This document shows, one piece after another, positions 3,447-23,322 of a stretch of 51,398 bases of DNA. The notes under the pieces are model-generated. The model did not search any database and was not told where the DNA came from. It was given only the letters and a program-made list of their open reading frames with translations. Source of the DNA: an uncultured Gammaproteobacteria bacterium (GTDB lineage Bacteria > Pseudomonadota > Gammaproteobacteria > Enterobacterales > Succinivibrionaceae); the NCBI GenBank assembly GCA_900315395.1, contig OMZC01000037.1:1-51398 (forward strand). Direction: 5' to 3'. The position numbers and the translations under genes are program-made. Each line of letters begins with the position of its first letter. Position 1 is the stretch's first letter.

Positions 3447-3547
3447 ACCGCGATTAGTGCCACAGAGTGTGGCTGCAGTTGGTTAATAAATAAAGTTAGC
3501 GGGGTTATTGATCTCCGCAAAAGTAGTAATATTTAGGAGACAAAAAC

Positions 3548-3766: not shown

Positions 3767-3806
3767 TTTGTGAGAACAAATAATTCTTATTAAGTAATTT
3801 ATGGAG

Positions 3807-3842
3807 AAGGGCGTCGAGACTAGGTCTCGCTACGCCCTTTTT
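3807..3842 (+). terminator. Terminator-like hairpin between rpmF and plsX
   Basis: GGGCG-T-CGAGAC, loop TAG, GTCTCG-CTA-CGCCC, then a six-base T-run. It is a strong intrinsic terminator by shape. It stands inside the operon and ends 5 nt before the plsX GTG, where the ribosome site should be. Confidence 0.75.
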
Positions 3843-3847
3843 AAATT

Positions 3848-4825: not shown

Positions 4826-4894
4826 TTCATGGAAATTCAGCCTCATCTTGTATAAAATGGACAAATTGTTTAATTGCATTATTTGGAGAATTCA

Positions 4895-5851: not shown

Positions 5852-5862
5852 TCTTTTCAATC

Positions 5863-5895
5863 AAAAGCGCAGTGATAATTTACTGTGCTTTTTTT
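5863..5895 (+). terminator. Terminator-like hairpin between fabH and fabD
   Basis: AAAAGCGCAGT pairs with ACTGTGCTTTT (one G-T pair) across 8 nt and runs into seven Ts. The fabD ribosome site AGGAG follows immediately at 5896-5900. It probably acts as a partial terminator or attenuator. Confidence 0.65.
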
Positions 5896-5906
5896 AGGAG
5901 ATAAAT

Positions 5907-6839: not shown

Positions 6840-6851
6840 AGGTAAGAAGAC

Positions 6852-7598: not shown

Positions 7599-7608
7599 TT
7601 TTTTAGGC

Positions 7609-7632
7609 GGTCAGTATCGAATTGATGCTGAC
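7609..7632 (+). other. Hairpin downstream of fabG
   Basis: GGTCAG-t-ATC, loop GAATT, GAT-g-CTGACC forms a stem with one mismatched base pair. It has no T-run, so it is probably an mRNA 3'-end or processing structure ahead of the separately expressed acpP. Confidence 0.4.
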
Positions 7633-7724
7633 CAAATATAGTTAATTTTGTGCTAATAATGTGATCTGTCACTTTTTATTGTAAATATAAGCATAATTTA
7701 CTACCAAAACTGAAAGAAAACATA

Positions 7725-7730
7725 TATAAT
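7725..7730 (+). promoter_or_regulatory. Possible -10 box of an acpP promoter
   Basis: A perfect TATAAT lies 93 nt upstream of acpP in the 224-nt fabG-acpP gap. No convincing -35 hexamer is seen at 16-18 nt. acpP commonly has its own strong promoter in gammaproteobacteria, which supports the site, but it is uncertain. Confidence 0.4.
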
Positions 7731-7822
7731 TAGCACAAGTTTGTTTGGGACCTAGCATTGGGCTGGCCCTTTTAATTTGAATAGGACAGTATCTGCATTT
7801 TGCAGTCTGATCAAGGAAAGAA

Positions 7823-8065
7823 ATGAGCAACAGCAATATTGAAGAGCGCGTAAAGAAGATTATCGTAGACATGTTAGGCGTAAAGCCTGAAGATGTTGTA
7901 CCTGAGGCATCTTTCGTAGATGATTTAGGCGCTGACTCACTGGACACTGTAGAGCTAGTTATGGCTTTAGAGGAAGAGTTTGGTACTGATATTCCTGATG
8001 AGGAAGCAGAGAAGATCAATACTGTTCAGGCTGCTATTGATTACATTACCAATCACAAGGAATAA
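7823..8065 (+). CDS. acpP: Acyl carrier protein
   Basis: This 80-residue acidic protein carries growing acyl chains on a phosphopantetheine attached to Ser39 in [12 protein letters not shown]. It is almost identical in pattern to E. coli AcpP (EERVKKII...[17 protein letters not shown]). AAGGAAAG precedes the ATG. The long leader with a TATAAT, and the two hairpins that follow, suggest that acpP is also made as a short separate transcript. That fits the high level of ACP cells need. Confidence 0.97.
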
Positions 8066-8093
8066 TAACTTTTAGTTATTATCCATCAATAGG

Positions 8094-8108
8094 GATGGGG
8101 ACCCCATC
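8094..8108 (+). other. Short GC-rich palindrome after acpP
   Basis: GATGGGG-A-CCCCATC is a perfect inverted repeat with effectively a 6-bp stem and 3-nt loop. It stands between the acpP stop and the terminator at 8132 and could act as an mRNA stabiliser. Confidence 0.4.
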
Positions 8109-8131
8109 TTCTGTTATTTAATAAATAGACT

Positions 8132-8160
8132 GGAGATGAATTTCATCTCCATTCTTTTTT
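8132..8160 (+). terminator. Rho-independent terminator between acpP and fabF
   Basis: GGAGATG, loop AATTT, CATCTCC, then ATTCTTTTTT. This is the standard stem and T-run. fabF starts 25 nt later with its own ribosome site, so read-through or a separate start must supply it. Confidence 0.7.
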
Positions 8161-8185
8161 CAAATACATTTACGGAGATCCAACG

Positions 8186-9433
8186 GTGCAATTACGTAGG
8201 GTTGTAGTTACCGGTATGGGCATGTTAAGCCCAGTTGGCGGTACACTTGAAGAATCATGGAAGAACCTATTAGCCGGTAAAAGTGGTATCAGCACAATAG
8301 ATCACTTTGATACTTCAGATTTCACAGTTAAAATCGCTGGTCTTGTTAAAGATTTTAATGCTGAGCAGTGGGGCATTGCTCGTAAAGATGAGCGTAAGAT
8401 GGATTTATTCATCCTGTACGGCATCGCTGCAGGCGTCATGGCTATCAATGATTCTGGTCTTGAAATTAATGATCAGAACCGCGACAGAATCGGAACCATG
8501 ATTGGTTCTGGTATCGGTGGCTTAACCTTAATCGAGAAGAACATCAATGGTTTAGCAAATCGTGGTCCACACGGTATCAGCCCATTCTTCGTACCATCAA
8601 CCATTATTAACATGGTTTCTGGTCAGCTATCAATCATGAAAGGCCTTCGTGGTCCTAACTTATCAACCGTTACAGCTTGTGCTACCGGTACTCATGCTAT
8701 CGGCTTATCAGCACGTTTAGTTGCTTACGGTGATGCTGACGTAATGATTTGTGGTGGTGCTGAAAAGGCTTCTACCCCAATGGGTATCGGCGGTTTCTCT
8801 GCTATGAAAGCTTTATCACATCGTAACGATGATCCTGAGCACGCATCTCGCCCTTGGGATAAAGATCGTGATGGCTTCGTTTTAGGCGACGGTTCAGGTG
8901 TATTAGTACTTGAAGAGTACGAACACGCTAAGGCTCGTGGTGCTAAGATTTATGCTGAGTTAGTAGGTTTCGGTATGTCAGGTGATGCTTATCACATGAC
9001 TGCAACTCCTGAGACTGGTGAAGGTGCAGCACGCTCAATGGTTCATGCATTAAAGGATGCAGGCGTAAAACCAGAGCAGGTTAACTACATCAACGCTCAC
9101 GGTACTTCAACTTCAGTTGGTGACTTATCAGAGTTACGCGCAGTTAAGAGCATCTTTGGTGACGCTCCTAAGAACTGCTGCATGAGCTCAACCAAGTCAA
9201 TGACCGGTCACTTATTAGGTGCTGCTGGTGCTATTGAAGCTGTTATTACTGTTATGTCAATCAAGGATCAGATTTGTCCTCCAACCATCAATCTACAGAA
9301 CCCTGAAGATGAAGTTGGTGATTTTAATCTTGTTCCTGGTACAGCTCAGAAACACGATATTGAGTACGCTATGTCAAATAACTTCGGTTTCGGTGGCACT
9401 AACGGCTCATTACTATTCAAGCGTGTTGACTAA
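8186..9433 (+). CDS. fabF: 3-oxoacyl-ACP synthase II (FabF)
   Basis: FabF elongates acyl-ACPs, including palmitoleoyl to cis-vaccenoyl in E. coli. The Cys-His-His triad is seen: Cys165 in TACATGTH, His in NAHGTSTS and His in GHLLGAAGA. The closing [15 protein letters not shown] is characteristic. The start is GTG 8186 with GGAG (8174-8177) 8 nt upstream. The 415 residues match the family. In E. coli, pabC-mltG-tmk-holB follow; here the operon ends at a terminator and an unrelated opposite-strand gene comes next. Confidence 0.96.
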
Positions 9434-9455
9434 GATTTAGTCTTTTATCGCTTTT

Positions 9456-9478
9456 AATCCCGTCTTTATGACGGGATT
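9456..9478. terminator. Convergent terminator between fabF and the TraF-like gene
   Basis: AATCCCGTC pairs perfectly with GACGGGATT across TTTAT. The loop holds the TAA stop of the minus-strand gene, so one hairpin probably closes both transcripts. The T-run is weak (ATTATTGT). Confidence 0.6.
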
Positions 9479-10047
9479 ATTGTCTCTATCACACCCTTTA
9501 TCTGCTCTCTTTTTACAATTCCAAAGTATCTGCTGTCATATGAATTCTCTTTAGCAGAAGCTACGATAAACTCACCGTTATCTAAATATCTGTCCATCGA
9601 GAATATAGGCATTTTGCGTTTAAGATTGTCATACTTCGAAGGCTTTGAGTCTGTAAGTAATCTTCCGTTAACCTCAATTCCGTTATCACTTATCTTTACA
9701 AGATCACCTTGTGTTGCAACAACTTTCTTACCAATAGGTGCTGACTGAAAGGCGCAATTGCCTCTAGTTATGTAGTGCCTGTCGACAGTAATTTTTGCAA
9801 TTTCATTTTCAAGACAGAATAAGATGTAGTCTTCCTTTTGTGGGTACTTAGTAACTTTTTTATAGATCCCGTAAGGAATAGAAGGGGAGACATTGATCCA
9901 AAGGTTAAAAACATTTGGCATTAAAGAGATGAAGTAGGCACAACAGAGCACCGAACACAGACACTTACAAACAGTTGCCTTCTTTGATTTCGTCTTTGTA
10001 CGTACCTTTCTTAATATTGGAGAATTCTCTCTGTCTTTTAAACTCAT
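9466..10047 (-). CDS. TraF-like S26 signal peptidase, single membrane anchor
   Basis: A 193-residue serine peptidase of the conjugal TraF / signal peptidase I clan. A basic N-terminus and one membrane segment (about residues 24-48, Cys-rich) precede NVSPSIPYGIYK, where Ser56 is the likely nucleophile. Lys107 in GKKVVATQGD is the general base, and YDSRYFG matches the conserved SxDSRYFG box. Plasmid TraF matures conjugative pilin; no pilin or other transfer gene is in view, so its substrate is unknown. ATG 10047 is chosen because GAGGT lies 7 nt upstream; an earlier ATG at 10068 lacks such a site. Confidence 0.75.
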   Translation of the reverse strand: MSLKDRENSPILRKVRTKTKSKKATVCKCLCSVLCCAYFISLMPNVFNLWINVSPSIPYGIYKKVTKYPQKEDYILFCLENEIAKITVDRHYITRGNCAFQSAPIGKKVVATQGDLVKISDNGIEVNGRLLTDSKPSKYDNLKRKMPIFSMDRYLDNGEFIVASAKENSYDSRYFGIVKREQIKGVIETIIPS

Positions 10048-11364: not shown

Positions 11365-12264
11365 GTGAATCCAATCTTTATTGTTCTACCAATTCTAACC
11401 ATTCTGACTTATTCATTAGGTCTTACCTTAAAGTCCGATGATTTTAAGATGTTATTAAAAAAGCCTCTACCTATGGCTGTAGGTCTTACAGGTCAGTTAG
11501 TAGTATTACCTGTAATTGCCATTGCTATTGCTTACTTTATGGGGTTAGATACTGTTTTCTTTATTGGTTTAGTTTTAATTGCCTGCTGTCCTGGTGGCTC
11601 ATCTTCTAATATCTTTTCATACATAGCTAAAGGCGATGTAGCTTTATCTGTATCCATGACAGCTGTAAGCTCCATTGTGACTTTGGTGACTTTGCCTGTC
11701 ATCATGTCTTTATGTGTATCCATATTAAATGCAAACGGCACAGAGTCTGAATTTGGTGCAGTACAACTTCCAGTAGGTAAGCTCTTAGTTCAAAACGTAG
11801 TTTTGATGTTAATTCCAATTATCTTAGGTGTACTTACTCAGCATTACTTTAAAAATGCAGCTGTAAAGATCTCAAAGGTATTATCTAAATTTGCCTTTCC
11901 ATGCTTAATCCTTTTAGCATCGATCTTTTTTGTAAAGCACTATCAGAACATTGCTAACCACTTAGATAAGTTAGGTTTAAGTGTGTTACTGCTAGTTGTC
12001 TTTGCTGTCATTGCAGCATCATTACTTTCAAGACTGTGTCATCAGTCATCAAAGACAAGACGCACAATCGTCATTGAAGTTGCAATGCAAAACGCAGCTC
12101 AGGCCATTGCTATTGCTTCAAGTCCATTTGTCTTTAACTCTGAAATCATGACTATCCCTCCAATCTTATATGCCTTAGTCATGAACTTAGTGTTATTAGT
12201 TTATGTAGGAGCCATCTTACGTAAAGACGAGAGTTCTACACTCATAGCTGCTAAGACTGAATAG
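11365..12264 (+). CDS. Bile acid:sodium symporter (BASS) family transporter
   Basis: A membrane protein of about 299 residues with some nine to ten hydrophobic helices and the BASS signature CCPGGSSSNIF. The helix-break segment EVAMQNAAQAIAIA lies in the second half, where Na+ coordination residues usually are. Bacterial members import bile salts, pantothenate, 2-oxo acids or related anions with sodium; the substrate here is not decidable. The start is taken at GTG 11365 because AGGAAAG sits about 6 nt upstream; ATG 11338 has no ribosome site. It is divergent from an RpiR-type regulator. Confidence 0.85.
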   Translation: MNPIFIVLPILTILTYSLGLTLKSDDFKMLLKKPLPMAVGLTGQLVVLPVIAIAIAYFMGLDTVFFIGLVLIACCPGGSSSNIFSYIAKGDVALSVSMTAVSSIVTLVTLPVIMSLCVSILNANGTESEFGAVQLPVGKLLVQNVVLMLIPIILGVLTQHYFKNAAVKISKVLSKFAFPCLILLASIFFVKHYQNIANHLDKLGLSVLLLVVFAVIAASLLSRLCHQSSKTRRTIVIEVAMQNAAQAIAIASSPFVFNSEIMTIPPILYALVMNLVLLVYVGAILRKDESSTLIAAKTE

Positions 12265-12289
12265 CTTTAAAACAATATACTTGTACAAA

Positions 12290-12319
12290 GATCTTTTACA
12301 CAGCGATCTTTTACACAGC
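12290..12319 (+). repeat. Two perfect 15-bp tandem repeats
   Basis: GATCTTTTACACAGC occurs twice head-to-tail (12290-12304 and 12305-12319). It lies in the 348-nt gap after the BASS gene, and its second copy supplies part of the hairpin arm at 12314. Confidence 0.9.
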
Positions 12320-12390
12320 GACTCAATTACAGAATATCCTCATAACAGAATATCCTCATAACAGAATATCCTCATATTTGAGTTGCTGTG
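12314..12390 (+). other. Long hairpin enclosing a triple tandem repeat
   Basis: CACAGCGACTCAA (12314-12326) pairs with TTGAGTTGCTGTG (12378-12390), 13 bp with one G-T pair. The loop is made almost entirely of three 16-bp repeats. No strong T-run follows, so its role (terminator, mRNA end or neutral expansion) is open. Confidence 0.6.
12329..12376 (+). repeat. Three perfect 16-bp tandem repeats
   Basis: ACAGAATATCCTCATA occurs three times without a mismatch at 12329, 12345 and 12361. There are no spacers, so it is not a CRISPR array. It forms the loop of the hairpin at 12314-12390. Confidence 0.95.
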
Positions 12391-12469
12391 TATTCTAATA
12401 GCCTCGTCTGATGTCTCAAATTTCTCTTAAAACTCACACCGTTTGTAAAATAAAAAGTTCGCACCAAAG

Positions 12470-12498
12470 TTGATCTTTTGAAAATAATTCTGTATAGT
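12470..12498 (+). promoter_or_regulatory. Sigma-70-type promoter of the heme locus
   Basis: TTGATC (12470-12475), a 17-nt spacer and TATAGT (12493-12498) lie 114 nt upstream of hutW. It is the best promoter match in the gap. No textbook Fur box was found, although an inverted repeat lies just downstream at 12516-12531. Confidence 0.55.
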
Positions 12499-12515
12499 GC
12501 AAGTTTATTTTATAA

Positions 12516-12531
12516 GTTAGTCAATGCTAAC
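12516..12531 (+). promoter_or_regulatory. Operator-like inverted repeat in the hutW leader
   Basis: GTTAG-N6-CTAAC is a perfect 5-bp inverted repeat about 18 nt past the -10 box. It therefore falls inside the expected transcript start region, where a repressor would block transcription. The binding protein is unknown. Confidence 0.35.
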
Positions 12532-12612
12532 GTAAATTATAAAGAGCTAACCGCAATTATATATAGCTAATTTAATTTTTATTTTAAATCAAAGAGTTTT
12601 TACCCAACAACT

Positions 12613-14136
12613 ATGAGCTTATCTAAAATAATTGAATTTCCATTTGAGCATTACTTAAAAAAACACACCTCACCTACAGGTGAAGTTGATTTCTCAGAAC
12701 TTGTAGAAGAGTTCAAAAAGATGGGAAAGATGCTGATGCCTAAATTAGGTGGTGCAGCTCCTAAGATGCCTATGGAAAAAATGATGGAGCAAATGGCAAA
12801 AGCACAGAATTTAGAATTAGATTACCGCGCTAAGATAAGTTCAGATCCATTAGAGAATGCCTTCGGTGAAAAGAGCATGTCTCACAACAGCTCTAACGTG
12901 AAAGTGGTACCTCATCCATTTGTCCCATATGCAATAGATATTCTTTCAAACGTTAAGAGAACAACCAAGAGCGCTATTTATATTAACGTGCCATTCTGTC
13001 AGACCAGATGCTCATTCTGCATGTTCTATATCTCTCCTTACAAGAAAGAAGAGTCAAAGCGCTATACCGATGCTTTGATTAAAGAAATGAGAATGTGGGA
13101 GAACTCAAAATCAGTAGGCACTTCTCCAATTCATGCTGTATACATGGGAGGTGGTACTCCTACAGCTTTAGAAGCTGAAGACTTACATCGCATTATCAAA
13201 ACCTGTCATGAGATTTTCCCATTAGCTAATGACTGTGAATTTACAGTTGAAGGTCGTCTTTCATACTTTACTGATGACAAGATTGAAGCCTGTTTAGCAG
13301 CAGGAGCTAACCGCTTTTCCTTAGGTGTACAGTCTTTTGATACTGAAGTGCGCAGACGCATGGGCAGATTAAGCTCAAAAGAGGATCTTATCCGTGGTCT
13401 TGAGCATCTGTCCTCATATGACGATGCTGCTGTCATCATCGATTTAATCTTTGGTCTGCCAGGACAGAATGACAAGAACTGGGATGAGGACTTAAAGATT
13501 GTCTCATCTTTACCAATTGACGGTGTGGATTTATACCAACTCATCATGCTCGAAGGCTCTCCTTTAGAGAAGCTTGTAAAGGCAGGCAAGATGCCTGAAG
13601 CACCTTCAAAAGAACAAAGAGCCAGAATGTACAAACGTGGCTTTGAGTACTTATTAGATAACCACTTTAGAGATCTTAGTGTGTCTCACTTTGGTAAGAC
13701 CTTCAGAGAGAGAAATCTATATAACGTCTTAGCTAAATCTGATGCTGATACTTTAGCTTTTGGACCAGGTGCCGGTGGCAAAATTCAGGGCGTAAGTTTC
13801 ATGAATGTCAGAAGCTATGAGAAATGGTTAGAAAAGATTGATGAGGGTAAAAAGAGCGCTCTGATGATGTTTGTACCTGAAAAGAACTGGCGCTTGTACA
13901 AGAAACTAGGTGAACAGGTAGAACTTGGCTTTATCAACTGGGATTACTTTGAACAGAACTTTAATGTCAACTTAAAGGACTCTTTAAAAGAGGTGATCTC
14001 TCAATGGCAGAGCGCAGGTTTGCTGACAGATAAAGGTAAATTTGCAGATCTTACCTTACCAGGTCGTTTCTGGGCAGTAACCATGGTGCAGCTTTTAATT
14101 AACTATCTGCAGCATCGTGTATTTGTGACAGCTTAA
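12613..14136 (+). CDS. hutW: HutW/ChuW-type radical SAM enzyme for anaerobic heme degradation
   Basis: This 507-residue HemN-like radical SAM protein has its 4Fe-4S cysteines at 129, 133 and 136 (CQTRCSFCMFY). It also has the SAM-contact segment MGGGTPT and the HemN-type LGVQSFD and DLIFGLPGQ motifs. E. coli ChuW and its relatives open heme without oxygen by radical methylation, releasing iron and a linear tetrapyrrole (anaerobilin). Assignment to this branch, and not to coproporphyrinogen dehydrogenase, rests on the divergent SFCMFY motif and on the receptor, HutX and flavodoxin genes that follow. About 120 residues precede the cysteines, more than in ChuW, including a Met/Lys-rich stretch near residues 38-62. 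Confidence 0.85.
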   Translation: MSLSKIIEFPFEHYLKKHTSPTGEVDFSELVEEFKKMGKMLMPKLGGAAPKMPMEKMMEQMAKAQNLELDYRAKISSDPLENAFGEKSMSHNSSNVKVVPHPFVPYAIDILSNVKRTTKSAIYINVPFCQTRCSFCMFYISPYKKEESKRYTDALIKEMRMWENSKSVGTSPIHAVYMGGGTPTALEAEDLHRIIKTCHEIFPLANDCEFTVEGRLSYFTDDKIEACLAAGANRFSLGVQSFDTEVRRRMGRLSSKEDLIRGLEHLSSYDDAAVIIDLIFGLPGQNDKNWDEDLKIVSSLPIDGVDLYQLIMLEGSPLEKLVKAGKMPEAPSKEQRARMYKRGFEYLLDNHFRDLSVSHFGKTFRERNLYNVLAKSDADTLAFGPGAGGKIQGVSFMNVRSYEKWLEKIDEGKKSALMMFVPEKNWRLYKKLGEQVELGFINWDYFEQNFNVNLKDSLKEVISQWQSAGLLTDKGKFADLTLPGRFWAVTMVQLLINYLQHRVFVTA

Positions 14137-14200
14137 AAGTCACACAACCTAAAAAAATTCAAATACATATATATCCAACATAAAACAAGGAAAAATCATT

Positions 14201-16378
14201 ATGAGAAAAACTAAACTTGCTTTAGCTTGCACTCTAATTTTGACATCAGCTTTTACCAAAGCTTATGCAGAGGAGGTTAAGACCAAAGGTATTGAAGTTA
14301 CCGCAACTAGAGTTGAGCGTGACTTACTACAGGTACCTGTAAGTGTTAGCGTGGTCTCTGAAAAACAGATTAAAAAGTCAGGTGCTAGCACCATCGGTGA
14401 TCTTTTAAAAGATGTACCTGGTGTTGAGGTTAATAATGATGGTTCTCAAGGTTTAAAACGTATCGGTATTCGTGGTGAGGATGCTTATAGAACTTTAGTT
14501 TTAGTTGATGGTCAAAAGATCTCTGAGCATAAATCAATGTCAGGCACTCCAATGTTAATTGATCCTGCATCAGTTGAGAGGATCGAGGTAATCAAAGGTC
14601 CTAACTCTGTTTTATACGGTTCAGATGCTATCGGTGGTGTTGTAAACATCATTACTAAAAAGAATGCTGATAAGCCTTTTACAGCTGATGTTGCAGCAGG
14701 TTATGACGGTTCAGGTGACGCCTGGCGTGAAAGTGCTGGTGTTTCAGGTAAAGTTTCAGGTGTAGGTTACAGATTTGGAGCTGCTAACGTAGAAGCTGGT
14801 AACTTACGTGTTCCTCATAAGGTAATTGAAGGCACTTCATATCGTCAAAAGAATTTTGATGGTCTGTTATCTTACGATTTTACTGACAAGGTTACCTTAG
14901 GTGTTAATGGTGAGTATTTTGATTCAGACATTAACTCAACTACAGAAGATACAGGTAGCTATGATGACTTTGGTGTGGAGATCCCTGTATGGAAGCGCAG
15001 TAAGGTAAACGTATTTGCTGAGTTAAAGAATTTAACTGATACCTTAGCACGAGTAAGAGTAGATGCTTACCATCAGTTAAATCAAAAGATCATGGTAAAC
15101 AGAATTAAGCAGTCAGAGAGTAGCTCATCTACTACTGTAAAAACATCCCCTAAGGGAAGCATTACTACTCAAAGAGATATTACAACCTCAATGACTGTAA
15201 ACTCTGGTGCTAAAAACACCATTTTAACAAATGCAGCAACAGCTCAGACTGAGTGGACACTAGGTGATGCTAATTACTTAATTGCAGGTGCCGGTGTTGA
15301 GAACGACAGCTTTACCTCACAGACAACTACCAAAGGTCATATGGATATGACTATGGATGTAACAATGTCTGGCATGGTAAATCAGAATGTTCATCAGAAT
15401 GTATCACGTGATGTTGTAAACAACAGAGGTATTTTATCAGGTGGTCAGAAGACCATTTACGGCTTCTTATCAAACGAAACTCAGTTACCATTTGATTTTG
15501 TTGCAAACTATGGTCTGCGCTACACCAAGGTAAAATCAAATGCTGATACCAACCTTAAGGTTAACAATCTAAACGGTTTAATCACCTCATCAGATACTGG
15601 CGATTCAACTAATAACCGTACTGTGTTTAACGCAGGTTTAGTTTGGAATGGTCTTGAAGATACTGCTGTAAGATTTAACTTTGGTCAGGGCTTTAGAGCA
15701 CCTATTTTACAAGAGAGATATTTCTCAACTTCAATGGGTGGCGCTACCGTTTATGGTAATCCAGATCTTAAAGCTGAGACCTCAAACAGCTATGAATTAG
15801 GTATCCGTCATGCTTCAGACAGATTCTTTGCTGATGTAAGTGCTTTCTTAACTAAGTCAAAAAACTTTATTGCAACTAAAGAGACAATTTCAAACCTGCA
15901 GGCATTACGTCAGTACTACAACGTAGCAAGTGCTAAGACCTTTGGTTTAGAGACTGTACTTTCATATGACTTTGAAGCAGGTATCACTCCATACACCAGC
16001 ATTACCTACATGCGTCGTCGTTTTGATAATGAAAGCTCAATCTTAGGTGCTACCTATGACACCAATACTCCAAAGCTTATCGCACGCTTTGGTCTGCGTT
16101 ATGAGCATGACTTTGGTAACTGGACTTTAAATACTGATGCATATGCTCGTTCACAGAGTGCTAGAAACTACACCAAGGTTGTTGACGATGCAGTAGCAAC
16201 AACTCATCAGGGTGGCTTTACCACAGGTAACTTTGAAGTATCAGGAAGCTTTGGTGAGAAGCGTCAGTATGTAGTAACCGCAGGCTGGTTAAACATTCTA
16301 AACAAGCGTTACTACACTACAGACGCGATTGCAGAGCCAGGTTCTCATGGCTTTGTAACTGTGTCAGCTAAGTTCTAG
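14201..16378 (+). CDS. TonB-dependent outer-membrane receptor, probably heme
   Basis: The 725-residue protein starts with a signal peptide (cut near AYA-EE). The TonB box region is IEVTATRVE, and the plug domain contains LLKDVPGVEV, RIGIRGED and GPNSVLYGSDAIGGVVNI. The beta-barrel ends in a terminal Phe (VTVSAKF). FRAP (residues 498-501) and NPDL (520-523) match the FRAP and NPNL boxes of heme receptors. The His normally found between those boxes is absent (Met512 is there). A Met/His-rich stretch lies at residues 380-398. It sits 64 nt after hutW, so heme or hemoprotein is the likely ligand. Confidence 0.85.
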   Translation: MRKTKLALACTLILTSAFTKAYAEEVKTKGIEVTATRVERDLLQVPVSVSVVSEKQIKKSGASTIGDLLKDVPGVEVNNDGSQGLKRIGIRGEDAYRTLVLVDGQKISEHKSMSGTPMLIDPASVERIEVIKGPNSVLYGSDAIGGVVNIITKKNADKPFTADVAAGYDGSGDAWRESAGVSGKVSGVGYRFGAANVEAGNLRVPHKVIEGTSYRQKNFDGLLSYDFTDKVTLGVNGEYFDSDINSTTEDTGSYDDFGVEIPVWKRSKVNVFAELKNLTDTLARVRVDAYHQLNQKIMVNRIKQSESSSSTTVKTSPKGSITTQRDITTSMTVNSGAKNTILTNAATAQTEWTLGDANYLIAGAGVENDSFTSQTTTKGHMDMTMDVTMSGMVNQNVHQNVSRDVVNNRGILSGGQKTIYGFLSNETQLPFDFVANYGLRYTKVKSNADTNLKVNNLNGLITSSDTGDSTNNRTVFNAGLVWNGLEDTAVRFNFGQGFRAPILQERYFSTSMGGATVYGNPDLKAETSNSYELGIRHASDRFFADVSAFLTKSKNFIATKETISNLQALRQYYNVASAKTFGLETVLSYDFEAGITPYTSITYMRRRFDNESSILGATYDTNTPKLIARFGLRYEHDFGNWTLNTDAYARSQSARNYTKVVDDAVATTHQGGFTTGNFEVSGSFGEKRQYVVTAGWLNILNKRYYTTDAIAEPGSHGFVTVSAKF

Positions 16379-16442
16379 TAAGCATGGTTTACAGAAATCA
16401 TAATTCCAAATAGCTTTGTTCCAATAAAAAGCAATTAAATCT

Positions 16443-16469
16443 AAGAGTAGAAGCTTAGCTTCTACTCTT
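16443..16469 (+). terminator. Perfect 12-bp hairpin after the receptor gene
   Basis: AAGAGTAGAAGC, loop TTA, GCTTCTACTCTT. Only a weak T-run (CTTTAAA) follows, and the ECF S gene starts 15 nt later. It may lower expression of the transporter relative to the receptor. Confidence 0.5.
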
Positions 16470-16484
16470 CTTTAAAAAGACATT

Positions 16485-17021
16485 ATGAAAAAAAGATACT
16501 TTAACTGTCGAGAATTAGTAGTAATAGGCGTATTTGCAGCCTCTGTAAAAGTAGTGACCATGATCATTGCTCTAGCAGGTGGTGGTCTAAATCCTGTCTC
16601 ACTAATTCTAAAGAATCTGGTTTTTACAACACTTATGGTTGTTCTTTTGTACAAAGTAAGAAAAACAGGTGCTTTAACTCTGTTTTCCTTAGTAAGTGCA
16701 CTCATAAGTTTTGTACTGCTAGGTGGTGGTATTACCTCTATTCCTTCAAGTTTGCTCTCAGCTATGTTAACCGAGCTGTGCGTGATTTTAACTGGTGGAT
16801 GTAAGAGAAGTTACGCTCCTGTAGTGGGAGCCTTTTTCTACGATCTTATCTCAAAGACTGCTTCACTGCGTGTCAGCTACATCATGGTACGTGAAACACC
16901 TGGTGTAATTTTTATGGTCGTAGGTATTGTAGCTATTGGCTATATAGGTTCACTTTTAGGTTTAGGTACAGGTGTGTACTGCGCAAGAGAATTAAAACAT
17001 GCTGGCATCATTAACCGTTAA
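16485..17021 (+). CDS. ECF transporter S component, MptD/Trep_Strep type
   Basis: A 178-residue integral membrane protein with five to six hydrophobic segments, Gly-rich turns (ALAGGGLNPVS, LLGGGITSIPSS), a basic start and RVSYIMVRETPG. This matches the MptD-like family of ECF substrate-binding subunits, which capture the ligand in the inner membrane without a periplasmic binding protein. The T and ATPase genes follow directly, so this is a dedicated transporter. The heme-locus context suggests heme or a tetrapyrrole as ligand. No strong ribosome site is visible, and the start lies just after a stable hairpin. Confidence 0.75.
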   Translation: MKKRYFNCRELVVIGVFAASVKVVTMIIALAGGGLNPVSLILKNLVFTTLMVVLLYKVRKTGALTLFSLVSALISFVLLGGGITSIPSSLLSAMLTELCVILTGGCKRSYAPVVGAFFYDLISKTASLRVSYIMVRETPGVIFMVVGIVAIGYIGSLLGLGTGVYCARELKHAGIINR

Positions 17022-17772
17022 TAATTCCGTTTTATATAAGTACAACGTCAAAAGCAAAATGCTTTTGTCGGTGTTTTGCTCAATCTGCGCTTTGTTTATG
17101 ACAAAGTTTGAGCCTTTATTTTTAATGTTTGTAGTAACTTTAAGCTATGCCTTATTGATGCAACGCTACAGGATCTTATTTGTAAGCTACATGTTCATGA
17201 CGGTGGTCATGATAATTTCACTTACCTGCGTCAATATCATTGCTATCTACATTCCAATGGTAAAAGACAGTGCTGATTTTACAAAATTGGCAGTGCCTTT
17301 TATGCGTGGTGCCTGCGTGATGAATGTGGTGATGCCACTTACTCTTACCATTAGAATGCAGAATCTTTTGACTACCTTACAGAATCTGCACTTGCCTTTC
17401 ATGATTTATTTGCCAGGGGCTGTGATGATCCGCTTTGTGCCTACCTTTATCAATGACATCAAGCAGGTCTTTGAGGCCATGAAGATACGTGGCTTTGAAT
17501 TTTCAGTTAAGAATATTCTAAAGCATCCATTGTTACTCATAAGACTTAGCTTCTCTCCATTAGTCTTTATGTCTTTACGCTCATCTGAGGATCTTGGAAT
17601 AGCCTGTGAGTTAAAGGGAATTGGTCAGAACAAACACTGCAATATGAAAAATCAGTGTCTGCATCGACGTGATTACTCACTTATTGCTCTAGCTGTAATC
17701 GTCTGTGCTGTAAGTTTGTATCTTGAGTATGCATGTGGAGGTTCATTTATTAACAAGGCAGGACATCCATGA
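16999..17772 (+). CDS. ECF transporter T component (EcfT/CbiQ family)
   Basis: The 257-residue membrane protein has hydrophobic helices in its first 130 residues, then a cytoplasmic coupling region with FEAMKIRGFEFS and the final helix. EcfT proteins carry two short Ala-Arg-Gly-like coupling motifs that contact the ATPases; MKIRGFE fits the first. The start overlaps the end of the S gene by 23 nt, and the stop overlaps the next ATG (ATGA), showing tight translational coupling of the S-T-A set. Confidence 0.8.
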   Translation: MLASLTVNNSVLYKYNVKSKMLLSVFCSICALFMTKFEPLFLMFVVTLSYALLMQRYRILFVSYMFMTVVMIISLTCVNIIAIYIPMVKDSADFTKLAVPFMRGACVMNVVMPLTLTIRMQNLLTTLQNLHLPFMIYLPGAVMIRFVPTFINDIKQVFEAMKIRGFEFSVKNILKHPLLLIRLSFSPLVFMSLRSSEDLGIACELKGIGQNKHCNMKNQCLHRRDYSLIALAVIVCAVSLYLEYACGGSFINKAGHP

Positions 17773-19175
17773 TTGAATTAAAACATGTAAGTTATGCTTA
17801 TGCTGATGAAACCAAATCTAATTTAAAAGATATCTCAATTACTGCTAAAGACGGTGAAATTACCTTATGTACAGGTGTATCAGGTTGCGGTAAATCTACT
17901 TTATTAAGAGTAGTAAACAGTCTGTGTCCAAATTACTACGGTGGTACTTTAGAAGGTGAGATCCTCATTGATGGTATCAACATCGTAGGTGAAGAGTTAG
18001 CTTATGTAAGTACTTTAGTAGGTACTCTGTTTCAGGATCCTGAGCGTCAGTTCTTTGCTTTAAATGTTGAAGACGAAATTGCCTTTGCACTTGAATGGAA
18101 AGGACTTACCAAAGCTCAGATTATTGAGCGCGTAAATTCTGTAATTGAGATGTTCTCACTTGAGGAGATTAGAAATCAGGCCATTGACTCTTTATCAGAA
18201 GGTCAAAAGCAAAAGGTAGGTTTAGCTACAGTTGTAGCTATGCAGGTAAAGAACATTATCCTCGATGAACCTACAGCTAATCTTGACCCAGAGTCAACTG
18301 AAGAGCTCGCTAAGATCCTCAATCGATTAAAGCAGGATAACTACTGCATCATGGTAGTAGATCACCGTCTTTATTACCTAAAAGGCTATGCTGACAAAGT
18401 TTATATCCTAGAGCAGGGCAGTGTAGTTGAAGAAGGTGACTTTAGCGTGATCTCAAATGAGATCATCAAAAAGTATGGTCTAAGAAAAACTGTAGTTAAC
18501 GATCGCCGTGAGAGCTTGAAGCGTCTTGAGTTTTCTGATGTTGAAAATTCTGATGATTGTATCGCTCAATGTAGAGAGCTCTCTTTTAAATACAAAAATG
18601 GCAAAGAGATCTTTAAAAACTTAAATGTAGCTTTCCCATTAGGCTTTCATGTCCTTTTAGGTCGCAACGGTATAGGTAAAACAACCTTATCAAGACTTGT
18701 CTTTGGTTTAGAAAAACCAACTAATGGCAAAGTAATATTTACAGATGATTCTGTAAAACATCCTTTATCTTATGGCTCTATTGTCTTGCAGAACACAGAT
18801 TATCAGTTAAACATGAGTTCTGTTCACAATGAGCTTAAATCCTGTTTCGAGCTTTCAGGTAAAAAGTGCACCAATGAGAGTATTAAAGAAGTTCTAAAGG
18901 AACTCTCTTTAGAGAACTTTGAATACCGTCATCCTCAATCCCTGTCAGGTGGTCAAAAGCAGCGTTTAGTCATCGGTTGTGCCTTGTGCAAAAATCCTAA
19001 GATTTTAGTGTTAGATGAGCCAACCTCAGGCTTAGATGGTGAAAATATGCGAAAAATTAAGCAGATCCTGCTTAATTTCTCCAAAAAAGGTCACTGTGTC
19101 GTCGTCATTACACATGATCTTGAGTTGATCGATGAAGACTACTTTGATGCAATTGAAATCAGGAACCAAGACTAG
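17769..19175 (+). CDS. ECF transporter ATPase, two fused nucleotide-binding domains
   Basis: This 468-residue protein is two ABC ATPase domains in one chain. Domain 1 has Walker A GVSGCGKSTL (about residues 38-47), signature LSEGQKQKV and Walker B ILDEPTANLDP. Domain 2 has Walker A GRNGIGKTTL, signature LSGGQKQRL and Walker B LVLDEPTSGLDG. It corresponds to EcfA and EcfA' fused and would power the S-T pair. The four-base overlap with the T gene supports one complex. Both sites look intact. Confidence 0.88.
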   Translation: MIELKHVSYAYADETKSNLKDISITAKDGEITLCTGVSGCGKSTLLRVVNSLCPNYYGGTLEGEILIDGINIVGEELAYVSTLVGTLFQDPERQFFALNVEDEIAFALEWKGLTKAQIIERVNSVIEMFSLEEIRNQAIDSLSEGQKQKVGLATVVAMQVKNIILDEPTANLDPESTEELAKILNRLKQDNYCIMVVDHRLYYLKGYADKVYILEQGSVVEEGDFSVISNEIIKKYGLRKTVVNDRRESLKRLEFSDVENSDDCIAQCRELSFKYKNGKEIFKNLNVAFPLGFHVLLGRNGIGKTTLSRLVFGLEKPTNGKVIFTDDSVKHPLSYGSIVLQNTDYQLNMSSVHNELKSCFELSGKKCTNESIKEVLKELSLENFEYRHPQSLSGGQKQRLVIGCALCKNPKILVLDEPTSGLDGENMRKIKQILLNFSKKGHCVVVITHDLELIDEDYFDAIEIRNQD

Positions 19176-19196
19176 TTAAAACAAGGCCAGTTAAAA

Positions 19197-19227
19197 CCAG
19201 AATAAATTAAACCCAGAATAAATTAAA
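19197..19227 (+). repeat. Two 15-bp direct repeats between the ECF ATPase and hutX
   Basis: CCAGAATAAATTAAA occurs at 19197-19211 and 19213-19227, with a period of 16. It lies within a 71-nt AT-rich gap whose other parts (CAGTTAAAA) look like decayed copies. Confidence 0.8.
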
Positions 19228-19246
19228 CCAAGAGTGAGATAAACAA

Positions 19247-19744
19247 ATGAATGATTTAAAAAATAAGATTGAAGAGATCCTATCCTCAGGTAAGTGCATG
19301 GGCCTTATGATGCTTAAAAATGCCTTAAACACCACTGAACTTGAAGTTTTACAAAATCTTAATCAGAAAGATACTTTGATTTTAGATAATAGCGTCTTTG
19401 ATAAGGTCTGGGAGTTTTTAACTGGATTTAAAAAGTTGACCTTATTTTTAGAAAAAGCAGGCAATATCTTTGAAATTGATACCAAGATAGGTCCTGGCAA
19501 AGAGGGCATGGGCTATTTCAATCTCTTTGAAAAAGGCTGTCTAAACGGACATTTAGTAAAAGAGTCTGTAACTTACATAGGTCTTTTAAAACTGCCTTTT
19601 ATGCACCTGACCTCTTATCAAATCGTCTTTTTAGGAAAAGATGGAAACTCTATTTTCTCACTCTATTTAGGTCGTGAGAATCATAAGCATGACGAGGCTG
19701 AAGTTGAGCGTTTCATGTCTTTTATCCTAGAAAATCAAAAGTAA
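19247..19744 (+). CDS. hutX: HutX/ChuX family heme-carrier protein
   Basis: A 165-residue cytoplasmic protein of the HutX/ChuX fold. Recognisable features are the N-terminal helix followed by the half-barrel, FEIDTKIGPGKEGMGYFNLF, and the C-terminal segment YQIVFLGKDGNSIFSLYLGRENH, which parallels the FFNRDGEAMFKIYVGRD block of ChuX. ChuX and HutX bind heme in the cytoplasm and hand it on for storage or degradation. Its place after an importer and within a hutW locus agrees with that. Identity to characterised members is probably modest. Confidence 0.75.
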   Translation: MNDLKNKIEEILSSGKCMGLMMLKNALNTTELEVLQNLNQKDTLILDNSVFDKVWEFLTGFKKLTLFLEKAGNIFEIDTKIGPGKEGMGYFNLFEKGCLNGHLVKESVTYIGLLKLPFMHLTSYQIVFLGKDGNSIFSLYLGRENHKHDEAEVERFMSFILENQK

Positions 19745-19796
19745 TAAAAGCTTTTTAAAAGGCTTATCCACCAAATTTAGAATGTAAAGGCAAAAT

Positions 19797-20312
19797 ATGA
19801 ATACCCAAATTGTTGTAAGTTCAGTTACCGGTAATACTTTAAAGGTAGCAAAAGCTATCTTTGAGAATTTAGTAAATTCAAACAAGGTGGATAAATGCAC
19901 CTTAGTTAAGGTTGATGATTATAAAAACTCTGATGACTACGAGAATGTCTTAGTAGGCTTTTGGTTAGATTCAGGTCATGCTGACATCAAAGCTTTAGAG
20001 GTGATTAAATCTTTAAAAGACAAGAATGTCGGTATCTTTGGCACATTAGGTGGCAGACCTGATTCTAAAGGTGCTTTTGAGGTGATGCAAAAGACCTGTG
20101 AGAGTCTTGATAAAAGCAATGTCCTGTTAGGCAATATGTTCATTCAGGGTAAGGTTAGCGCTGAGGTGCTAGAGAAAATGTATATAGCTTTTCCTCATTT
20201 AAAGAATGATGAGAATCATCAAAAAAGAATTAAAGAAGCTTCAACTCATCCTGATACCACTGATCTTGAGATGGCAGCAATGACCGCTAGAAGATGGATT
20301 GAACAGAATTAA
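19797..20312 (+). CDS. Flavodoxin-like protein, candidate electron donor (HmuF-like)
   Basis: The 171-residue protein begins like a flavodoxin, IVVSSVTGNTLKVAKAIFENL, where the TGNT loop would hold the FMN phosphate. It continues with VLVGFWLDSGHADIKA and FGTLGGRPDSKGA. Flavodoxins supply electrons to radical SAM enzymes. A flavodoxin-superfamily protein of the Fusobacterium heme locus (HmuF) has been reported to act in heme trafficking and anaerobilin reduction. This gene, 52 nt after hutX, could do the same; the specific role is inferred from position. AAAGG precedes the ATG. Confidence 0.72.
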   Translation: MNTQIVVSSVTGNTLKVAKAIFENLVNSNKVDKCTLVKVDDYKNSDDYENVLVGFWLDSGHADIKALEVIKSLKDKNVGIFGTLGGRPDSKGAFEVMQKTCESLDKSNVLLGNMFIQGKVSAEVLEKMYIAFPHLKNDENHQKRIKEASTHPDTTDLEMAAMTARRWIEQN

Positions 20313-20341
20313 CAATTAAAGCAAAGATATAAATAATCAAA

Positions 20342-20944
20342 ATGAATTTAGAAAAACTCTATAACCTCTCAGGTCCATGTGGACTTGTGATTGTTCTAAT
20401 CGGTATTGTCGCTATCTATATCAGTATTAGAAACTATCTTTATACTAGCTTTGCTTGGAAGAGCTTTAAAAAGACCTTTGTAAACACTTCAACCAATGAA
20501 GAAAAGTGCTTAAAAGACTATCATGGTGGTAATCCCTTTTTGAATATCATCTATGCGATGGTAACTACCCATCAGCAGCATTCTGATGATTTAAGAGCAG
20601 AGGTAGTCTATCTTTTTAATAAGAACTTCCGCTCTGTAACTAACGGCTTAATTGTCCTAAAGCTAATTACCGTAATTTCACCTTTATTAGGTCTGTTAGG
20701 TACGGTTTTAGGAATGCTTACCATCTTTGAAGAGATCTCCAAACTCTCAAATCAGGATCCGCAATTATTAGCCTTAGGTATCTGGCAGGCTTTAATTACA
20801 ACGGTAATGGGACTGTGTGTAGCTATTCCTACTCTAGTTATGTTCTACCTTCTGTCGATGCGCATGAAGATCTTTTTAATGGAGACCATTGAGCATACTT
20901 ATCAGGCTATTAGCTCCTTTAACAAAGTAGAAAGAGCAAATTAG
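20342..20944 (+). CDS. exbB: ExbB/TolQ-type proton channel subunit
   Basis: The 200-residue inner-membrane protein has an N-terminal helix (about 13-30), a cytoplasmic middle, and the two-helix core with ISPLLGLLGTVLGMLTIFEEI and ALITTVMGLCVAIPTLVMFY that defines the MotA/TolQ/ExbB family. With ExbD it forms the proton channel that energises TonB. It is the first gene of an exbB-exbD-tonB trio directly after the heme genes, so the motor is probably dedicated to the nearby receptor. Confidence 0.9.
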   Translation: MNLEKLYNLSGPCGLVIVLIGIVAIYISIRNYLYTSFAWKSFKKTFVNTSTNEEKCLKDYHGGNPFLNIIYAMVTTHQQHSDDLRAEVVYLFNKNFRSVTNGLIVLKLITVISPLLGLLGTVLGMLTIFEEISKLSNQDPQLLALGIWQALITTVMGLCVAIPTLVMFYLLSMRMKIFLMETIEHTYQAISSFNKVERAN

Positions 20945-20966
20945 GCTTTAGGACAAAGGCAAAGAG

Positions 20967-21494
20967 ATGAAACTTGATAAAGACATCAACCTGATTTCAG
21001 ATGATGCGCATATCGATCTGACACCTTTAATCGATGTCATCTTTATGTTGCTCATCTTTTTTATCTTGACCATGAGCTTTTCTCAGACAGCTTTAAAGAT
21101 CACGCTGCCTCAAAGTCAGTACTCAGAAAAGATTAGAGAGAACAATCTAATCAGCATAACTGTAACTACTGAGGGTAAATACCTTATCAAGAAAGATGAG
21201 GTAACACTTGATAAGCTTGCCTTAATGCTAGATGAGAATAAAGAGGCTCAATTGAACATTGCAGCTGACGCTAATTGCCCATTTCAGGCTTTTTTAGATC
21301 TTGTGGATCTGGCTAAAAGCAAAAGAGAGGGGAAGTTTATCTTAGCTACAAATAACAAAGCTACAAATAACAAAGCTACAAATAACAAGTCTATAAATAA
21401 CAAGTCTATAAATAACAAAGAAGATGGCATGAAAAGTAATGCCAATGTTGAGAGTATGAATAATCCTGCTCCCACTGCAAAAGATAAAGAATAA
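20967..21494 (+). CDS. exbD: ExbD-type proton channel subunit with a repetitive tail
   Basis: Residues 1-140 are typical ExbD: a short cytoplasmic start, one membrane helix with the essential Asp (HIDLTPLIDVIFMLLIFFIL) and a periplasmic domain. The C-terminal end is unusual. From about residue 127 it consists of five tandem five-residue units (three ATNNK, two SINNK) and a polar tail, all coded by 15-bp repeats. At 175 residues it is about 35 longer than typical ExbD. The repeats are in frame and leave the core intact. Confidence 0.9.
   Translation: MKLDKDINLISDDAHIDLTPLIDVIFMLLIFFILTMSFSQTALKITLPQSQYSEKIRENNLISITVTTEGKYLIKKDEVTLDKLALMLDENKEAQLNIAADANCPFQAFLDLVDLAKSKREGKFILATNNKATNNKATNNKSINNKSINNKEDGMKSNANVESMNNPAPTAKDKE
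21345..21419 (+). repeat. Five in-frame 15-bp tandem repeats within exbD
   Basis: The unit GCTACAAATAACAAA at 21345, 21360 and 21375 is followed by the variant TCTATAAATAACAAG at 21390 and 21405. Each unit adds five residues, so copy-number change would keep the frame. Confidence 0.95.
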
Positions 21495-21511
21495 AGCACG
21501 TTTAACACAAG

Positions 21512-22312
21512 ATGAACCTTTACGATAAGTACGAGCAAAAAGCTAATAGAGCTTCTTTTCTAATCACACTCTTAGTGTTGATAGTGCTTTTGTCTGTCTT
21601 TGAATTTAATACCTCGGTTGAAGTTGAGGCTCAAGTTGAACCACAAGCTGCATATGCTGTGACGGTTATGGACTCTAATGTAGTCTTAAAAGAGCCTAAG
21701 GTTGTAGAAGAAATTAAAACAGAAGAACGTGTAAACCCTGTAAATGAGCATGTAAAAGACGATTTTCAAAGTGAAGAGAAAATCGAGACCAAGGTAAAAG
21801 AAGATAAGAAGGTAGACAAAAAGGTAGAAAAGAAAGTAGAGAAAAAAGTAAAAACTAAAAATGAGAAGAAAATTGTTAAAAACAAAGAGAAAGTAGCTAA
21901 AAAAGAGATAAAAATAGCTAAAAATACAGAAAAATTGGCAAAACAAGGCGAAAATCTTAATTCTACTAATAACAGCGAGAATGAAAGCAAAGCCAAAATT
22001 GCCTATGAAAGAGAACAGGCAAAAATCTCTTACAAGAATGCCTTTAATTCTCTGTTAGCTTTTTTGTCTTCAAAAAAGCAGTATCCGCTTAAAGCTAAAA
22101 AGTTAAACCAAGAAGGGGAGTGTGTCATTGTTTTTAATGTAGATAAATTTGGAAAAGTTGTATCAGCTTCGCTTAAAAAGTCATCTGAATATCCACTGTT
22201 AGACAGAGAGTGTAACTCTCTTGCTTCAAAAGCAGTAGGCTTTGACAGCAAAGTTTTAGGCAAAGAGCTTAATGTTTCTGTGCCAGTTAAATTTTCTTTA
22301 ACTTCAAGATAA
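21512..22312 (+). CDS. tonB: TonB energy transducer with a charged linker
   Basis: The 266-residue protein has an N-terminal membrane helix (about residues 14-30), a long periplasmic linker, and a C-terminal TonB domain with YPLKAKKLNQEGECVIVFNVD and GKVVSASLKKSSEYPLLD. Instead of the usual Pro-rich linker, residues about 62-165 are a Lys/Glu repeat (VEKKVEKKVKTK) with few prolines, likely a long charged helix. It ends the exbB-exbD-tonB trio, 17 nt after exbD. A terminator follows. Confidence 0.85.
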   Translation: MNLYDKYEQKANRASFLITLLVLIVLLSVFEFNTSVEVEAQVEPQAAYAVTVMDSNVVLKEPKVVEEIKTEERVNPVNEHVKDDFQSEEKIETKVKEDKKVDKKVEKKVEKKVKTKNEKKIVKNKEKVAKKEIKIAKNTEKLAKQGENLNSTNNSENESKAKIAYEREQAKISYKNAFNSLLAFLSSKKQYPLKAKKLNQEGECVIVFNVDKFGKVVSASLKKSSEYPLLDRECNSLASKAVGFDSKVLGKELNVSVPVKFSLTSR

Positions 22313-22344
22313 TTCAAATTCACTTTTTTATTATCATAATCCTA

Positions 22345-22394
22345 CCTCTGTAAAGCTTGAGCCCTCTATGCCAAGTCTTTACAGAGGCTTTTTA
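22345..22394 (+). terminator. Terminator of the heme/TonB locus
   Basis: CCTCTGTAAAG pairs perfectly (11 bp) with CTTTACAGAGG over a 21-nt loop and runs into CTTTTTA. It closes the ten-gene block. Confidence 0.7.
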
Positions 22395-22509
22395 TAATCG
22401 CAAATCATCACCATCTAAAGATGAGCTCAACAAACAATAATCTGTGAATAATATAGAGTTAAATCCTCTGTAATTTGGTAAAATCTAGTCACAATTTATA
22501 GAGGGCAGT

Positions 22510-23322
22510 ATGGCAGAAGATTTTAAAAAACAAGGAATGCACAATGGCTTTGAAACTCTGGTTAAAGCTATTGAAGAACTAGCAGGCAACAAGGTTGATC
22601 TTTCCGATATAAAAGAGAAAGATGATGTTGCTAAATTAAGAGCTATGGATGCTAGAAGTGCTAGTTTAGAGCTTGCAAAAGAACGTCTTGAAAATCATAA
22701 AACCTTTGTAAATAGTATCTATGAGAGCAAGAAGGTCTTACCTAACAATACCTTTGAAAAAGCTCTACTAGATGATATGAATCGCGAAGCTTTCAATACT
22801 GCCAAAGCTTTTTGCTCTATGGCCTTTTTATCAGGTCAGTTTTCAGCTGCTCCTGCTTTATTACTGTTACAGGGCGCTGCAGGTACTGGCAAAACCTATA
22901 TTTGTAATTGTGTTGCCAACGAAGTTTTAAACAAAATCTGGAAAGAAGTTGAAATTTGCGATTACAACCAAATCAAAAAAGCTAAAGTGCCAAGTCAGGC
23001 TGACACAAGCTATGATATTGATGCAAAGAATAAGGCATGGCAACGCTTTGTAACAGTTGATCTGTTAATACTAGATGGTCTTTGCAAAAATAATGAAGCT
23101 CTGACAGCTTATGATAAACAGCTGTTACCAGAGTTATTAAGAGCAAGAAGAGCAAATAACCTGCCTATGGTAATTACTACTCCTTTGCAGCCTACCATGA
23201 TGCATAATCACTTAGGTGATGAGTGTTTTGAGTCTTTAAAAGACTATTCTGTAATGACCTCTGCCTTATTCGGTCCTAGCAGAAGACAACCAATCTTATT
23301 TGGTGGAGCAAGATTAAATTGA
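22510..23322 (+). CDS. DnaC/IstB-like AAA+ ATPase, putative helicase loader
   Basis: A 270-residue protein. The N-terminal 60 residues are helical; the ATPase domain has Walker A GAAGTGKT (122-129) and a Walker B-like VDLLILDGL (183-191). It resembles DnaC in the segment from NTFEKALLDDMNREAF onward and in VDLLILD against VDLLVID. The usual Glu after the Walker B Asp is Gly190, so hydrolysis may be impaired. DnaC-type proteins load the DnaB helicase; this is a similarity call only. Its stop overlaps the TTG start of ruvX, so the two genes are translationally coupled. Confidence 0.65.
   Translation: MAEDFKKQGMHNGFETLVKAIEELAGNKVDLSDIKEKDDVAKLRAMDARSASLELAKERLENHKTFVNSIYESKKVLPNNTFEKALLDDMNREAFNTAKAFCSMAFLSGQFSAAPALLLLQGAAGTGKTYICNCVANEVLNKIWKEVEICDYNQIKKAKVPSQADTSYDIDAKNKAWQRFVTVDLLILDGLCKNNEALTAYDKQLLPELLRARRANNLPMVITTPLQPTMMHNHLGDECFESLKDYSVMTSALFGPSRRQPILFGGARLN

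Follow-up and report, generated by a model that had tools for sequence, protein, structure and literature searches.

The window analysed here, a 51,398-nucleotide stretch of contig OMZC01000037.1 from an uncultured gammaproteobacterium of the Succinivibrionaceae (GenBank assembly GCA_900315395.1), contains ten genes at positions 12613-22312 that very probably encode a complete anaerobic pathway for the use of heme iron, built around an energy-coupling factor (ECF) importer. The locus is a real, conserved and dedicated system, whose cargo we infer to be heme. More broadly, it probably represents a widespread Gram-negative heme-import machine that has not been described previously, in which the S component of the importer would take periplasmic heme without a binding protein and feed HutX, an HmuF-type flavodoxin and the radical S-adenosylmethionine (SAM) enzyme HutW, in company with an outer-membrane receptor and a private TonB motor. 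The cassette would be spread over anaerobes from three or more phyla and would be the usual partner of HutW in the class of Desulfovibrio, where it accompanies HutW in 31 of the 32 HutW genomes sampled.

The ten co-directional genes listed in a preliminary description of this DNA were all located as open reading frames (ORFs) on the forward strand, with short gaps or overlaps between neighbours, and their families are backed by Pfam and NCBIfam. The first, hutW (12613-14136), encodes a radical SAM anaerobilin synthase of the ChuW/HutW type with a CxxxCxxC motif and matches TIGR04107 over its full length (positions 2-419 of 419; 493.5 bits, above the curated cut-off of 400); as a member of this family, the enzyme is predicted to turn heme into anaerobilin and to set Fe2+ free. 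A heme-type TonB-dependent outer-membrane receptor with Plug and barrel (14201-16378) is followed by the ECF S component, the membrane substrate-binding subunit and proposed heme binder (16485-17021; PF09605 Trep_Strep, 36 bits, cut-off 28.7), the T component (16999-17772; PF02361 CbiQ, 47.8 bits, cut-off 25) and a fused double ATPase, A-A' (17769-19175), with two ABC_tran stretches within 468 residues. The S and T frames overlap by 23 bases and those of T and A-A' by four, and the presence next to S of a T component of its own and a pair of ATPase domains identifies the set as an ECF importer. Next come hutX (19247-19744), for a cytosolic heme carrier (PF06228, 57 bits, cut-off 25; ChuX, 2ovi, E 2.2e-18; NCBIfam HutX equivalog score 99.8, under its cut-off of 110), and an hmuF-like flavodoxin gene (19797-20312; PF12641), whose product we propose to be a heme shuttle and anaerobilin reductase. 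The motor genes exbB (20342-20944; PF01618, 84 bits), exbD (20967-21494; PF02472, 89.8 bits) and tonB (21512-22312; PF03544) close the operon. The repetitive C-terminal tail of ExbD is encoded by 15-base repeats at 21344-21418.

The gene set is not a chance grouping: looking for it in related genomes, which the preliminary description had proposed as a check, recovered it in the same order in three relatives and much alike in other phyla. A search of 60 relatives with the S protein gave five matches, namely the window's own, G008, G024, G029 and a weak one in G028 (E 6.5e-6). G008, G024 and G029 share the gene content and gene order of the window's cassette, with S identities of 79, 60 and 70%, respectively, G008 belonging to the genus of the window's genome. 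hutW of G029 is split by a contig end, with its remainder on contig 41. The flanks of these cassettes are unlike those of the window: both flanks differ in G008 and G024, as does the downstream flank, the one compared, in G029. Named genomes were scanned with the four aligned S sequences as the query and without recourse to hutW; S alone led to 28 loci, in Succinivibrionaceae, Mucispirillum, another metagenome-assembled genome (MAG) of the Deferribacterales, Parasutterella, Mailhella, other Desulfovibrionaceae, Desulfobulbus, Desulfobacula, Desulfocicer and other groups. hutW is visible in 25 of them (24 over the profile threshold plus an end fragment in L041, E 5e-56), and the contigs of the other three (L047, L050 and L063) end inside the receptor gene; in the Desulfocicer locus, L055, it lies ~10 kb away on the opposite strand. 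The receptor was found in 26 of the 28 loci (not in L055 and L066), T and A-A' in 26 each, hutX in 23, the flavodoxin in 24, exbB in 21, and exbD and tonB in 18 each, with the downstream part truncated at the contig in L047, L050, L053, L066 and L067, the exbB of L060 an 83-residue fragment, and the exbB, exbD and tonB of L055 lying on the opposite strand beside DUF3450 genes and not being cassette members. In L058, the ATPase is divided between two ORFs, with no hutX in view. The S-T-AA' block sits between the receptor and hutX genes in nearly all loci that show that stretch.

A HutW tree (24 rows) and an ATPase tree (26 rows) are only partly congruent. Mucispirillum, Mailhella and the Desulfobulbus/Desulfobacula group are each coherent in both, while in the ATPase tree L042 departs from the other Succinivibrionaceae, L043 departs from Mucispirillum and L051 shifts; the long branches of L042, L051 and L066 make the deep joins unsure. 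Two single loci deserve mention. On the MAG contig of L067 (5400-8899), the open frames of hutW and the receptor overlap and the receptor start is ambiguous. In Desulfocicer L055, a weak Peripla_BP_2 gene just under the cut-off (8895-9866) stands directly 5' of S-T-AA', which may be a case of a binding protein feeding an ECF importer.

S and HutW also occur together across two samples of genomes. Within the family of the window's genome (56 genomes), HutW over the cut-off and S are each found in four genomes, the identical four; some match to the HutW model occurs in 54 of the 56, mostly to weaker HemN/HemW-type relatives. A second sample comprised 297 genomes from the class to which G104 belongs; as G104 is a Mailhella, this is taken to be the class of Desulfovibrio. 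Here, S is present in 31 genomes and HutW over the cut-off in 32, and all 31 S genomes have HutW. Every S match reaches at least E 1.8e-52, and no genome has its best match between that value and 1e-3; seven of the 31 genomes (G094, G097, G098, G099, G102, G104 and G105) had supplied rows of the S profile. In G303, the lone HutW genome without S, the contig ends inside the receptor gene 3' of hutW, and S may lie outside the assembly. The Fisher tests for the pairing (3e-41 for the 297 genomes and 2.7e-6 for the family) ignore kinship and linkage and should not be taken at face value. S and hutW share a contig in 30 genomes, and in 27 of these they are at most 4.5 kb apart, start to start. In G217 and G393, hutW lies ~1 kb after the S-T-AA'-hutX-flavodoxin block rather than before it; in G133 it is ~30 kb from the S-ATPase-hutX-flavodoxin block, and in G386 it is on a different contig, so the pairing does not come from linkage alone. 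Within the stretches taken from G133, G217 and G393, there was no match to the receptor profile, and a T component was not listed in that of G133. G147 (L073 and L074) also has a second hutW, which lies ~33 kb from a second S-T-AA'-hutX set; no flavodoxin was seen next to that set.

In textbook Gram-negative heme import, a binding protein passes heme to a BtuCD-like ATP-binding cassette (ABC) importer. The genome assembly of the window, G000 (2.48 Mb, 92.6% complete, 125 contigs, the window being contig 64), contains neither a FecCD permease, in a search for which 13 of 14 controls were positive, nor a Peripla_BP_2 protein, peptide permeases not having been searched for; the HmuTUV-type combination of binding protein and FecCD permease is thus missing from it, and the earlier claim that the ECF set is the sole importer and works without a binding protein is borne out to that extent. 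Peripla_BP_2 is also absent from G008 and G029 and occurs once in G024. FecCD is over the cut-off in 23 of the 56 family genomes, with one match in G024, none in G029 and one sub-cut-off match (19 bits) in G008. A point that weighs against our interpretation is that FecCD is over the cut-off in 24 of the 28 genomes with scanned loci, so the ECF set is not the only candidate there. In all seven genomes in which both could be placed (G024, G094, G097, G099, G102, G104 and G105), FecCD and S are on separate contigs. The route from receptor to ECF to HutX to HutW put forward previously gains support from the conservation across phyla, the co-occurrence of S and HutW in 31 of 31 genomes and the lack of FecCD and Peripla_BP_2 in G000.

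The receptor is of the heme type. FRAP/NPNL heme receptors have their two boxes with a histidine between them. That of the window has GFRAP and NPDL boxes, no histidine between them, and a methionine where some relatives have histidine. When the stretch from FR-P to NP-L is compared among 26 receptors, leaving out one fragment row, one position is histidine in six (L049, L056, L060, L061, L062 and L067) and methionine in 20, including the window, which suggests, as read from the sequences, a changed axial ligand. The FRAP/NPNL assignment made earlier holds for the heme type and for the FRAP and NP-L boxes and fails for the histidine. The best NCBIfam models for the receptor are hemoglobin/heme receptor subfamilies, at 226 and 207.5 bits, both under their cut-offs of 323.75 and 316.85. 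A single-sequence search with the window receptor placed Cir first through the plug region and PhuR third but over its full length, and a profile of 18 receptors placed PhuR (8the) first (positions 38-691 of 707, E 3.9e-54) and Cir second (42-196 only), so that the full-length likeness is to heme receptors over other receptors. TonB_C is matched once each in G000, G008 and G024, by the tonB of the cassette itself, and twice in G029.

Structure prediction gave the S component six helices and the S-component fold. Run against PDB sequences, the S profile had no match even at E 10, so that sequence offers no solved relative from which the substrate could be deduced, and the family of S, PF09605/TIGR02185, carries no named substrate. 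BtuM and CbrT, named as cobalamin S components (PMC7299338), are not among the fold matches listed for S, which excludes neither. The spectra of LhaS, the S component of a Gram-positive heme importer, point to histidine as a heme ligand (PMC7299338). The S component of the window has a single histidine, His172, near the C-terminus, in a column that is histidine in 28 of the 36 S rows; no histidine is invariant in that alignment, and a conserved heme-ligating histidine of the LhaSTA type was therefore not found. The genomic context nevertheless argues strongly that S binds and transports heme. If so, S must take heme directly within a periplasm, and the purified protein is predicted to be red.

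The flavodoxin has a flavodoxin fold with a helical cap, as in HmuF/FldH, and a cap histidine aligns with His134 of FldH in 20 of the 24 flavodoxins of the loci; that of the window is two columns off. Flavodoxin is among the known electron donors of ChuW (PMC12670364), and the preliminary description had assigned the flavodoxin that role. A better reading makes it a protein of the HmuF/FldH type that binds heme and reduces anaerobilin, besides or instead of being a plain electron donor. Anaerobic hand-over of heme from HutX to HutW has been reported (PMC12670364). In the seven Deferribacterota loci where this part is visible (L043-L048 and L052), HutX and the flavodoxin form a single ORF of 355-432 residues, and Pfam found both domains in the two examined, L045 and L052. 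In two genomes, the flavodoxin gene is followed by a gene with weak, sub-cut-off likeness to PNPOx, the superfamily of HutZ/HugZ (L071, 8016-8492; L072, 10632-11162).

Put together, these parts suggest a pathway in which we infer every heme transfer step. The TonB receptor, energised by its own ExbB-ExbD-TonB, would move heme into the periplasm, where S would pick it up on the periplasmic side of the inner membrane with no binding protein. T and A-A' would drive heme inward through ATP hydrolysis by toppling, the mechanism proposed for ECF importers. HutX would receive the cytosolic heme and, with the HmuF-type flavodoxin, pass it to HutW, which would open the ring by a SAM-derived radical and free Fe2+; the flavodoxin would afterwards reduce the toxic linear product.

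Upstream sequences point to iron control. The palindromic box GTTAGTCAATGCTAAC (12516-12531), a candidate operator, is the sole exact GTTAG-N6-CTAAC of the window and lies ~80 bases 5' of hutW, with a chance of 0.00035 for the 348-base region. Three copies, repeating every 20 bp, stand 5' of hutW in L040 (6145-6200), L042 has two before hutW (5608-5646) and one before the receptor gene (7660-7675), and G029 has two with one mismatch 5' of hutW (L081, 1216-1260). Among 30 family loci (114,758 bases), exact copies occur only in the cassette loci L010-L012. A further exact copy, at position 3586 of L056, is not near hutW. If one mismatch is tolerated, the window count is four against 1.89 by chance, a value reached in 10 of 100 shuffles, so that only the exact match and its position are informative. 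In L009 of G028 (2816-9989), a distant Trep_Strep S, a T component and ATPases stand beside an AMP-binding ligase gene and a divergent condensation-domain gene of the nonribosomal peptide synthetase (NRPS) type, and this set is possibly a Gram-negative ECF importer of a siderophore. Two exact boxes lie between the divergent S and NRPS genes (8050-8085), and two further one-mismatch copies beside the ligase gene. Since the box is shared with this siderophore-like locus, it points to iron control, and from its distribution it is probably a family-specific candidate iron operator; its half-sites may resemble DtxR/IdeR boxes. In other clades, a Fur-like box 5' of hutW reached a shuffle P of 0.05 or less in nine of 21 loci, the best in L051 (16 of 19), in a scan that is uncorrected for multiple tests or kinship and was negative in the other 12 loci, L040 and L042 among them, and in the window.

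Across 12200-22600, a promoter scan gave 16 sites, fewer than the shuffle mean of 29.0, and terminator-like sites numbered 17 against 5.9 in shuffles, with none listed beyond the operon end. Three 19-base repeats at 16-base spacing occur 5' of the operon (12326-12376). The neighbouring genes are unrelated: upstream are a signal peptidase S26, an RpiR-type regulator and an SBF symporter, and downstream a weakly IstB-like ATPase (under the cut-off), a RuvX gene and a DUF446 gene. Rfam and tRNA scans of the window gave no match.

We considered whether heme is imported mainly for cofactor use by bacteria that do not synthesise it, HutW clearing the surplus. This explanation accepts heme as the cargo and is compatible with our interpretation; as an account of what the locus is chiefly for, we regard it as unlikely. 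All four cassette genomes of the family lack a match to ALAD (HemB), as it would predict, but ALAD gave no match in 47 of the 56 family genomes (35 of the 41 more complete ones) and 43 of these 47 are also without the cassette. Most members of the family thus seem to lack this route of heme synthesis, a lack that looks like a family trait and is not linked to the cassette. Many cassette-bearing relatives, moreover, belong to sulfate-reducer groups that make heme, and both the Fur-like boxes and the box shared with the siderophore locus indicate iron.

It is less likely still that the ECF importer carries another micronutrient or an iron chelate, such as a siderophore, cobalamin or another vitamin, under shared iron regulation, with heme entering through another permease. 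The family without a named substrate leaves room for this, as does the distant G028 member, with its own T component and ATPases beside NRPS-type genes and the same box; peptide permeases, which were not searched for here, can import heme in E. coli. Against it stand the position of S-T-AA' between the receptor and hutX genes in nearly all visible loci and the presence of HutW in every one of the 31 S genomes. The G028 protein, in turn, is just 33% identical over query residues 4-112, was missed by the S profile and deviates at Lys22, Gly33, Gly34, Asn36, Lys43, Glu137 and Glu169, retaining Glu97 and Arg136. Finally, an ordinary HmuTUV-type operon with its binding protein and permease elsewhere in the genome and the ECF set as a passenger is highly improbable, because the FecCD matches found somewhere in most scanned-locus genomes are never on the S contig where both are placed, and G000, G008 and G029 have no Peripla_BP_2 and, but for the sub-cut-off match in G008, no FecCD.

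Our interpretation of a heme-carrying ECF importer combines features of known systems. The Hmu cluster, hmuTRUV-hmuW-hmuF with exbB, exbD and tonB in some, has been described from Fusobacterium nucleatum and further anaerobes (PMC10404700); it likewise groups a HutW/HmuW-type enzyme, an HmuF-type flavodoxin and a TonB receptor, and ExbB, ExbD and TonB occur in both, whereas Hmu imports heme through the HmuT binding protein and HmuUV, which in the present locus are replaced by the ECF importer, with HutX added. LhaSTA of Staphylococcus lugdunensis is a heme ECF importer in the isd locus (PMC7299338, where streptococcal and Lactobacillus sakei heme ECF systems are also cited). It resembles the present S-T-A set, for which the cargo is proposed, as a heme gate at the cytoplasmic membrane without a binding protein; it differs in belonging to a Gram-positive, single-membrane cell, while the present importer is coupled to an outer-membrane receptor and HutW. 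HutW and HutX also handle cytosolic heme in the systems encoded by hutWXZ of Vibrio cholerae and, in E. coli O157:H7, by the chuW/chuY operon together with ChuX (PMC12670364 and PMC10404700); the present locus differs in that neither a HutZ- nor a ChuY-type gene is among its ten, the only part of the genome examined for them, and in having an HmuF-type flavodoxin and another importer. Our literature search for a Gram-negative heme ECF importer, whose scope excluded most subscription papers and all bioRxiv preprints, returned Gram-positive systems only; in the passages returned by term look-ups, PMC12670364, a 2025 review of bacterial heme, has ECF only as a sigma-factor reference and no heme ECF importer, and those of PMC12583661 and PMC11109136 name none. 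ECF heme import itself being known from Gram-positive bacteria, what appears to be new here is a probable heme ECF importer in a Gram-negative setting. The heme S components described so far have strikingly little sequence in common and possibly have independent origins (PMC7299338), and the present family would possibly add another. If our interpretation is true, anaerobes including Mucispirillum, Parasutterella, Mailhella and Succinivibrionaceae use an ECF importer instead of a binding protein and a BtuCD-like importer. These four are gut dwellers, and the cassette would offer a simple marker of anaerobic heme-iron use for gut metagenomes.
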